Assembly: GCF_036785885.1 (NCBI RefSeq)
Contig: NC_092312.1
Location: forward strand, 18,742,001 to 18,806,000
Direction: 5' to 3'
DNA: 64,000 nt
Source: Coffea arabica
Taxonomy: Eukaryota; Streptophyta; Magnoliopsida; Gentianales; Rubiaceae
Part shown: positions 18,001 to 20,856 of the stretch, one piece after another
Layout of the letters: each line of letters opens with the position of its first letter
How positions within the stretch are numbered: the first letter of the stretch is position 1
Notes under the pieces: model-generated
Database searches by the model: none
What the model was told of the DNA's origin: nothing
The model's input: the letters and a program-made list of their open reading frames with translations, nothing else
Program-made: the position numbers and the translations under genes

Positions 18001-20856
18001 TCATATATGATTATCAAGCTAGGAGGACATTGCATGCTAAGCCATATTTGGTAATACTCCATGATTTTACACCACATAATATCTTCTTATGTTGCCAAGA
18101 AAGTAATGTGATCTAGTTATACAATCACAACTTTCCAAAACATATTCCACAATCATTAGTAGTCCACTAGTCAGATTTACAAATTAAAACGCATACCATC
18201 AGGGAATATAGCAGCAGCACCACCCTCGTAGAACCAATCAATTTCTTTCTTGCGCAACAAAAATATCCCCCGCAGGACCAAGCCAGTGACCTTCAATTAA
18301 ACCAAAAAGATTTCAGAATATGACATGTACTGTCACAGATTCTAGAAGTGTTTATACATCCTCCAAAAAAGACTACATAGAAAAACAAGATTTAAAAAAA
18401 ATTCCATCTCACCTTTTCAGGGTGTGACTGGCAATATGCAAGAGCAAGCGTACTCCCCCATGAACCCCCAAATACCTAGAAGATCATGGTTGATAGAGAT
18501 GTAAAGCAATGAACACAAAATGATTCAAACAGAACCAGTCACAAACCTGCCATTCTGGAATTTGTAAGTGCTCTCTGAGCTTTTCAATGTCATTCACCAG
18601 GTCCCAGGTGGTATTCTCTACTAAACAAGCATGGGGTGTGCTTTTTCCTGCACCTCGCTATAACATGAAAATGGTTGTCACACACGCTGTACTTAGCTAA
18701 GTTTTGAAACACATAGTTGACATTACTAACCTGATCAAATAGAATAATCCGATAAAATGCAGGGTCAAAAAATTTTCGATTATTTGGTGAAGTTCCACCT
18801 CCTGGGCCTCCATGGAGAAAAACAACTGGCTGCAACGTACAAAATGTCAGGATGGAGAAAAACAACTGGCTGCAACGTACAAAATGTCAGGAGGTGTAAA
18901 GCTGCATTAGTTCAAATAATGCCAAACCAAGAGTATCAGTGGATGTAGTACAAGAAATATACACATTAAATGGAGCCGAAATCAAGAATTGTGATGTTCT
19001 GCCCTAGAAAGTATAAGAATTACAAGTTTTAAATTGCAGTATAGGTCCACATCAGATATAAACTTGGAAATTCTGGTAGGAACCTTTATGTATCTCATTG
19101 AGACATTCCTGAAAGGACTAGAAAGAAAATCCCATACCCAATTTTCAGACCTCAATACCGTGTCAAGACCCTTAATTAGAGATGCTTGCTTTCACTCATT
19201 GGTGCTCTAGTGCAATAAAACTCTACCATTAAAGTTTCCTTCCCTTATTGCTACACCACTCTCCAACCTAATGTAATAACAAAAAGGAGAAATGTCAACA
19301 CTATGATAGAGTTTCTAATACTATGATAGAGTCCTGCCTTGGCAGAGGGGCCGTTGGGATTATTTCCAGCAGGCTAGTTTTTCCAAATGTCAATAACCCC
19401 TTAATAGTCGAAACCTTCAACTCCGATCCAACAAATTAAACAGACAACTGAGAAACTTGTAACGAAAAGAAAAAGACTGGTAAAGCAGGCCGGATGTCAA
19501 CAAAGTTTCAGCTATAACTGATAAAAATTCCTTATTACAAATATCACATTTCTATTAGCACAATGTACAGCAGATATCGACCAAGATAAGATAAAAGGGG
19601 ATAACCTTTAATCTTTATGTTACTCTATAAGTTTCTAAAATAAGGGACCGTGCATATATAACGTGGCTCGTAAAGCAATTAGCAGGCTGCAGCGTTGTTA
19701 TCATAGATTCCAGCCATTAAAAATCGGAGAATGAAATACATATGAAGTAGATTAGGATAAAAATAGAGACTAAGAAATGAAATCCCTTAATGAAAACAAC
19801 TTACATGCCCGTTGGGATTCCCTGACTGCTCCCAGTATATAGTATGAAGATCTGAAACCTTCAGGAAACCAGTACTATATGGCTCTATATCTAGGTAGAG
19901 CTCTCTATTTAATTCCGTAGAGTCTTTCTTAGAATCCATAGATTCCAAACTCCGCTGCTTCTCACTCTTATAATCAATATTTTGTGCCCTCAACACACTA
20001 CTATTCCGTTCTGTCAATAACAATGCAAATAACGCAACAAATTCAGCTATATAAAAAATAGAAGACGACAATTTCCACTATAATTGTTTTTTTCAAAATT
20101 ATATCAGAACTGATGATGTCAGCTTAGCAAGAATAAAGAAGGGCCCACGATTTATCTCCTGCAAAAGAAAGTTGTCCTCCTATTTCCTCACACCCTTCAT
20201 ACAAGGTAGAATTTTAACAATCAATTCTCTAGGCAAAAGAAGAATCTTTGTGTGTTCTGTAGACTTGTAACGCTAATACACATAATAATACCAATAGAGA
20301 AACAAATTGTTCCTTGTTTCAGAACGCGTTCGATTCTAACCAAATGTAAGCAAATACATAGAGATGACTGAACATAGGACAACTGTATGTGCTACATGTT
20401 TGCCTTACTTTAGCTAGAACATGTAATTACGGACTTAGTGGTATGATTCTTGATCTTATGCATTAATGAAGAAGCAGAAAACTATAAAGAAGTGGGCTTT
20501 CTTGTTTGATGAACACAAAACAACAAAGGAAAGAAAAAAAAAACATAGGAAGGCTGCTGGAAAAGAATATATTATTCTTATCGTCAAACAGAGCAGAAAG
20601 AAAGGGGGGAGGAGAGAGGGGGGGGGGGGGGAAGAGGAAGAAGAATCTGTTGAGAAAATTGAGGTGTACCTGAGATCGTGAGATTTTTGGGAGGAAAAGA
20701 GGAAACGGGTCGATGGAAAGAGAGCGCTGGGAAGAAGGGCTTAAGCAATTGAATTGGAGAGAGAGTGGAGGAGTGAGAGTGAGAGAGGGGAAAGGGCGTC
20801 TGATTTGGATGAGAAGACCCTCGTATTCTTCCTCCCCCTAAAACTACAAGGCTCAT
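15089..20856 (-). CDS. PIP: Prolyl aminopeptidase (proline iminopeptidase), plastid type
   Basis: An alpha/beta-hydrolase that removes N-terminal proline from peptides. Eleven exons on the minus strand: 20856-20670, 20010-19805, 18829-18731, 18657-18547, 18475-18413, 18290-18197, 17630-17533, 16945-16844, 16745-16632, 15736-15662, 15193-15089. The frame closes at 417 residues. The first about 90 residues are rich in Ser, Pro and His and look like a chloroplast transit peptide; Met at [10 protein letters not shown] in exon 2 could serve as a cytosolic start. Family marks are [12 protein letters not shown] (oxyanion loop), [12 protein letters not shown], the nucleophile elbow GGSWGS, and [13 protein letters not shown] with the catalytic His; the Asp is probably in exon 10 (GRYDVCCP). 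An exact 40-bp tandem duplication covers the exon 3 acceptor; only the copy nearer the exon keeps the frame. An imperfect tandem repeat (17318-17465) lies in intron 7. Confidence 0.92.
17318..17465. repeat. Imperfect tandem repeat inside intron 7 of the aminopeptidase gene
   Basis: Two diverged units share ATCTTCCAAAAAAAATAATA, then a GAAAGGTT segment and CATGAATT, at about 17318-17380 and 17400-17465. It is intronic, with no sign of coding use. Confidence 0.65.
18812..18891 (-). repeat. Exact 40-bp tandem duplication across a splice acceptor
   Basis: Two identical 40-bp units abut at 18812-18851 and 18852-18891. Each contains the minus-strand acceptor TTGCAG and the first 18 bases of exon 3 (CCAGTTGTTTTTCTCCAT). 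The gene therefore has two identical acceptors 40 nt apart. Use of the inner one (exon from 18829) gives the conserved [12 protein letters not shown]. Use of the outer one (exon from 18869) adds 40 nt, shifts the frame and loses the HGGPGGG loop. Confidence 0.95.

Follow-up and report, generated by a model that had tools for sequence, protein, structure and literature searches.

A 40-bp tandem duplication across a splice acceptor in one of two prolyl aminopeptidase gene copies of Coffea arabica

The DNA analysed here, referred to as the window, is a 64,000-base stretch of the Coffea arabica genome lying on contig C3 in our numbering. On its minus strand we modelled by hand a gene of eleven coding exons (Table 1), with GT at 10 of 10 donors, AG at 10 of 10 acceptors, and 417 codons free of stops when the inner of two acceptors in front of exon 3 is used. 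The encoded protein scored 522.2 bits against the NCBIfam prolyl aminopeptidase model TIGR01249 (cut-off 259.75; positions 2-306 of 307), bearing out the aminopeptidase identity given in a preliminary description made from the letters alone. It also matched Pfam Abhydrolase_1, and residues 98-405 aligned with PDB 1azw, a proline iminopeptidase, at 428 bits. The motif HGGPGGG, to which we ascribe a role in the oxyanion hole, stands at the start of exon 3 and falls inside the 1azw alignment. Judged by eye, the N-terminal ~90 residues look like a transit peptide. Elsewhere in the window, an 863-aa open frame on the minus strand (24130-26721) appeared by eye to resemble a leucine-rich-repeat receptor kinase.

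Table 1. Features of the aminopeptidase gene and of the duplicated exon 3 acceptor, in window positions
Feature	Position	Strand	Remarks
Prolyl aminopeptidase gene, 11 coding exons, 417 aa	15089..20856	-	Hand-built model
Exon 2, 206 nt	19805..20010	-	Donor GTAAGT; phase 0 start for exon 3
Exon 3, 99 nt	18731..18829	-	Encoded segment ends ...FDQ; identical in C4 copy
Alternative exon 3, 139 nt (+40 nt), outer acceptor	18731..18869	-	Stop after 160 codons
Inner (downstream) unit	18812..18851	-	Identical to outer unit; acceptor G at 18830, gene-model exon 3 start at 18829
Outer (upstream) unit	18852..18891	-	22 intron bases, CTGAC branch-point candidate, acceptor TTGCAG (G at 18870)
Outer unit, exon-like part		-	18 bases encoding PVVFLH; exon start would be 18869
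Extra matching base T at duplication junction	18892	-	1-base homology
Third AG (GCAG), 32 nt upstream of outer acceptor	18902..18903	-	In both gene copies; use leads to a stop after 4 codons

Across the intron 2/exon 3 junction, read on the minus strand, we observed two identical, abutting 40-bp units (18812-18891), each made up of 22 intron and 18 exon bases (CCTGACATTTTGTACGTTGCAG/CCAGTTGTTTTTCTCCAT, the slash marking the acceptor). A script counted the exact 40-mer twice in the window, and Tandem Repeats Finder reported 18812-18892 with a period of 40, 2.0 copies, 100% matches, no indels and a score of 162. Judged from its length, an exact direct repeat of 40 bp is far beyond chance. These two programs and a direct reading of the letters agree with the preliminary description, which had noted identical adjoining 40-bp units with the acceptor and 18 exon bases in each; the junction coordinates that it gave, 18829 and 18869, are also correct, the acceptor Gs standing at 18830 and 18870.

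We then found a second copy of the gene carrying a single 40-bp unit. A 141-base DNA query against the genome (1,197,963,845 bases in 131 contigs) returned two matches, the locus on contig C3 and C4:18673894-18673966, the latter matching query bases 69-141 with 100% identity. When the two genes were aligned globally, the 240 columns printed around exon 3 showed no difference other than the 40-bp C3 insertion. The genome was also searched with TIGR01249; 30 candidates were scored and 14 exon matches reported, all 14 of them in the C3 or the C4 gene, and one gene copy was seen on each of these contigs. The window aligned with C4:18655319-18710071 in eight blocks, each of at least 400 columns. 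In an alignment-based model the C4 coding sequence was likewise open for 417 aa, with 13 differences to C3 over 1254 bases (8 synonymous, 5 replacement), the proteins differing at residues 3, 6, 12, 44 and 216. The pair had a Ks of 0.030, a Ka of 0.005 and a Ka/Ks of 0.17, a ratio that shows constraint on the pair as a whole and, without an outgroup, is not specific to C3. At codon 216 (18431-18433), shortly after the motif GGSWGS, which we take to have a catalytic role, C3 encodes Cys and C4 encodes Ser (AYCQSHP versus AYSQSHP), with Ala at this position in 1azw.

By family matches, the large contigs (C1-C22) are numbered in what appear to be 11 adjacent pairs; family matches also fell on two small contigs, C47 and C53. 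On C17, one exon proved caffeine-pathway-like, its translation being close to the coffee enzymes PDB 2eg5 (xanthosine methyltransferase) and 2efj (3,7-dimethylxanthine methyltransferase). For the first Arabica assembly, 22 pseudochromosomes are stated in the available text of PMC11018527. We conclude that C3 and C4 are probably homoeologous chromosomes. Their being heterozygous haplotypes was considered and dropped in favour of homoeologs, the large contigs standing apparently in 11 pairs and the species being allotetraploid. As homoeologs, the two copies would not owe their difference in unit number to heterozygosity; were they haplotypes of a very heterozygous plant, the backup discussed below would be an allele.

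The comparison with C4 also revealed three much larger C3 insertions. The 740-bp insertion (1006-1745, span 997-1754) was flanked by a 9-bp target-site duplication (AAGTGTGCA) and its ends shared the inverted sequence GGGATGGCAA, offset by one base (14 of 30 bases agreed without the offset). It looks like a small DNA transposon, perhaps of the Mutator type. A 9-bp target-site duplication (GATGCAATT) likewise flanked the 1,220-bp insertion (32933-34152, span 32924-34161), whose ends shared the inverted sequence AGGGGTGGGCA, again shifted by a single base (9 of 30 bases agreed unshifted). The 2,733-bp insertion (48554-51286) had no clear target-site duplication and poor terminal inverted repeats (11 of 30 bases).

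Relative to C4, the insertion at exon 3 measures 40 bp, with an identity of 1.0 to the neighbouring stretch and an ambiguity length equal to the insertion length. Beyond the 40 bp, homology at the junction amounted to 1 base only; so small a pre-existing repeat at the ends speaks against replication slippage. The single-unit reading frame gives the conserved protein, and C4 is single-unit in this comparison of two copies with no outgroup. The baseline for the region consisted of 51,142 aligned bases of the 64,000-base window (blocks of fewer than 400 columns, unaligned stretches and insertions between blocks were left out), over which C3 and C4 differed by 1,596 substitutions (3.1%). A total of 60 length differences of at least 10 bp were observed, insertions and deletions mixed. 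Eight of these were at least 90% identical to a neighbour of equal length and in that respect tandem-duplication-like; seven measured 10-12 bp (three of them simple repeats of TG, AAG and A) and the remaining one was the 40-bp unit. It was by far the longest of the eight and the only one among the 10 differences of 25-60 bp, although a long tandem duplication with n=1 in the baseline supports no rate.

In rice, according to the available part of PMC7971508, tandem duplications are the commonest source of insertions, making up at least half of new insertions, and are attributed to patch repair. Our share of 8 in 60 is lower than this, the 60 including deletions whereas the rice figure refers to new insertions. 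With almost no homology at the junction, end-joining repair is a better fit than slippage, and in mammalian cells small duplications at breaks are described as arising mostly via CST-dependent end joining (PMC8355091, available text). The duplication probably originated as a tandem duplication in the repair of a break. The type of mutation is already known and is ordinary; it is the position over a splice acceptor that is of interest.

The preliminary description had taken zero divergence between the units as the mark of a very recent event, a polymorphism or an assembly artefact; the first of these is a conclusion that the numbers do not sustain. For a duplication dating from the split of C3 and C4, 0.73 differences would be expected over the 40 bases at the intron rate of the gene (81 in 4,415 sites), and 1.25 at the rate of the window. 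The probability of observing no differences at that age is 0.48 at the intron rate and 0.29 at the window rate (range 0.29-0.49), and probable constraint on the 18 exon bases would make it higher. With about one difference expected even at the age of the split, zero divergence is no proof of recency, and any age up to the C3/C4 split is allowed.

Use of the inner acceptor yields the normal 417-aa protein. With the outer acceptor, a frameshift follows ...NGHPVVFLH (H137), giving 23 altered codons and then a stop, for a total of 160 aa. Translation therefore upholds the earlier statement that the 40-nt shift would break the frame just before GGPGGG. Downstream of the stop there remain 49 nt of exon 3 and 8 exon junctions, the last of these 706 nt away; with a stop placed in this way, nonsense-mediated decay of the outer-site RNA is likely, in agreement with the preliminary description. 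The choice posed there, between a reliably used inner site and a partly non-functional RNA subject to decay, is buffered by the intact C4 gene. Skipping of exon 3 would preserve the frame but lose HGGPGGG. The third AG, a GCAG present in both copies (Table 1), was located only a few bases past the branch-point candidate CTAAT; such a position would be compatible with steric exclusion, and hence with CTAAT as the real branch point.

The two acceptors are identical from -22 to +18, so that any score based on the site itself is equal and local strength cannot decide between them; their wider context differs. Within the last 51 intron bases, YTNAY branch-point candidates were found 37, 27 and 17 nt before the outer AG, against 17 nt only for the inner one. 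The A+T content before the AG was 0.63 for the outer and 0.55 for the inner site, while the 49 bases before the AG were slightly richer in T (0.41 versus 0.39) and in pyrimidines (0.65 versus 0.61) at the inner site. In the scanning view (Smith 1993, as reported in the available text of PMC10655562), an AG that is near the branch point, and not within 12 nt of it, competes best. Combined with the branch-point context this favours the outer site, which could dominate, a point that we counted against mixed use. The same source attributes to Chua and Reed the finding that an upstream AG competes better if the downstream AG is less than 6 nt away, whereas the duplicated acceptors are 40 nt apart. 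In a human minigene library, tandem 3' sites set to consensus showed no order preference (PMC6783452, available text), which by analogy across kingdoms makes mixed use the default expectation. None of these three lines of work on splice choice (scanning, Chua and Reed, the human library) comes from plants. By this analogy we lean, with modest confidence, towards both acceptors being used in some mixture.

Two readings would instead give nearly all of the splicing to one site. If the inner acceptor were nearly always used, the duplication would be silent and the outer unit would be just the last 40 intron bases; the inner site is followed by the real exon 3 context and directly preceded by the U-rich stretch TTGTTTTTCTCC, its T and pyrimidine content is slightly higher, and the C3 coding sequence is otherwise intact. 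Against this, the outer site is locally the same, has more branch-point candidates and a more A+T-rich upstream context, and would profit from nearness to the branch point, leading us to regard a silent duplication as unlikely. The opposite outcome, near-exclusive use of the outer acceptor, would render the C3 gene effectively null, with function maintained through C4 alone as an early homoeolog loss. It would follow most readily from a branch point at CTAAT (37 nt) or TTTAC (27 nt), with the outer AG being the first beyond the steric limit and the inner AG 67-77 nt off, but the inner unit has a CTGAC candidate of its own, the human library gave no order preference, the 40-nt spacing exceeds the less than 6 nt of Chua and Reed, and no other disabling change was found in the C3 coding sequence; we consider this outcome unlikely as well. 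Very doubtful is a homoeolog-specific switch, in which the inner/outer ratio would vary with tissue or stress and so regulate the dosage of the C3 enzyme. If true, one subgenome would have a regulated prolyl aminopeptidase dosage and the other would not, and the locus, its sites being locally identical, could serve in nature to test whether plants choose an acceptor by order and branch-point context alone.

The identity of the two copies could also be explained by an assembler having doubled a single 40-bp unit. We hold such an artefact to be highly improbable, as an 80-bp feature is short relative to HiFi reads and its flanks, over the 240 columns printed, show no further gaps against C4. HiFi reads underlie the Arabica assembly, and ET-39, the Arabica reference line, is di-haploid (PMC11018527, the available text of which does not state in so many words that the HiFi plant was of the ET-39 line). 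The birth of a mini-intron was considered as well, in which splicing from a GT in the outer exon part to the inner AG would take out 37 or 34 nt and leave one or two extra codons. The outer exon part has GTs at +3 and +6 that would permit this, both with products in frame (the distances from GT to the inner AG are 37, 34, 11 and 7 nt only). Plant introns are known to need about 60-70 nt, and 34-37 nt falls below this. The potato RdRp gene has a like layout across a 3' junction, but by eye the coffee donors CCA/GTTGTT and GTT/GTTTTT are poor beside the potato GTAAG (PMC4974935, available text). We rejected the mini-intron, scarcely credible in our view, on intron length and donor quality.

Returning to the use of both acceptors, we propose that the repair of staggered DNA breaks produced a perfect 40-bp tandem duplication in the C3 homoeolog, either in Coffea arabica or in the progenitor lineage that gave C3's subgenome. 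A whole acceptor unit would have been copied in this way (branch-point candidate, U-rich stretch, AG and the first 18 exon bases), leaving exon 3 with two locally identical acceptors in competition, both of them used. RNA spliced at the outer site, with 40 additional nt, 23 altered codons after H137 and a stop, would be removed by nonsense-mediated decay or would yield a useless fragment, and the output of enzyme from the C3 copy would be lowered. The intact C4 copy may serve as a backup, making the loss in C3 tolerable. Taken as a whole, from break-repair duplication and use of both sites to reduced C3 output and buffering by C4, this is the explanation that we favour on balance, though not strongly. 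The locus would then be a plausible small case of a splice-site mutation weakening one homoeolog while its partner covers, and such weakening may be how duplicated genes start being lost in young polyploids. Identical acceptors at a spacing of 40 nt, together with the single-unit gene as a matched control within one nucleus, would also constitute a natural experiment on whether order matters in plants.

The closest known system is the potato RdRp gene (Ma, Lan and Niu 2016), for which the available text of PMC4974935 describes how a tandem duplication spanning the boundary of intron 1 and exon 2 gave rise to a new intron, whose donor, a cryptic GTAAG, lay in the upstream exon part. In both plants the duplicated segment runs from the 3' part of an intron into the beginning of the following exon and includes branch site, pyrimidine stretch and acceptor. 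The potato case is documented by 106 RNA reads and its copies have 10 differences, whereas the coffee copies are identical and 40 bp long. With neither an adequate donor nor sufficient intron length in coffee, a new intron is not expected there. Among the matches listed in our search, in which few subscription journals were covered, no plant junction duplication other than potato RdRp was recognised by title. Alternative tandem 3' splice sites resemble the coffee locus in having two close acceptors for one donor; the classical ones differ locally or sit 3 nt apart (NAGNAG), whereas those in coffee share every base from -22 to +18 and stand 40 nt from each other. In AG-gain variants upstream of an acceptor (PMC10655562, available text) a new AG likewise lies between a branch-point candidate and the old acceptor, but in coffee the entire acceptor was copied along with the new AG, including a further branch-point candidate. 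Patch-mediated plant duplications (Vaughn and Bennetzen 2014, as cited in the available part of PMC7971508) share the perfect copy, the insertion-length unit and the near absence of junction homology. As a mutation, then, the coffee duplication is like these, and only its position at a splice acceptor is special.
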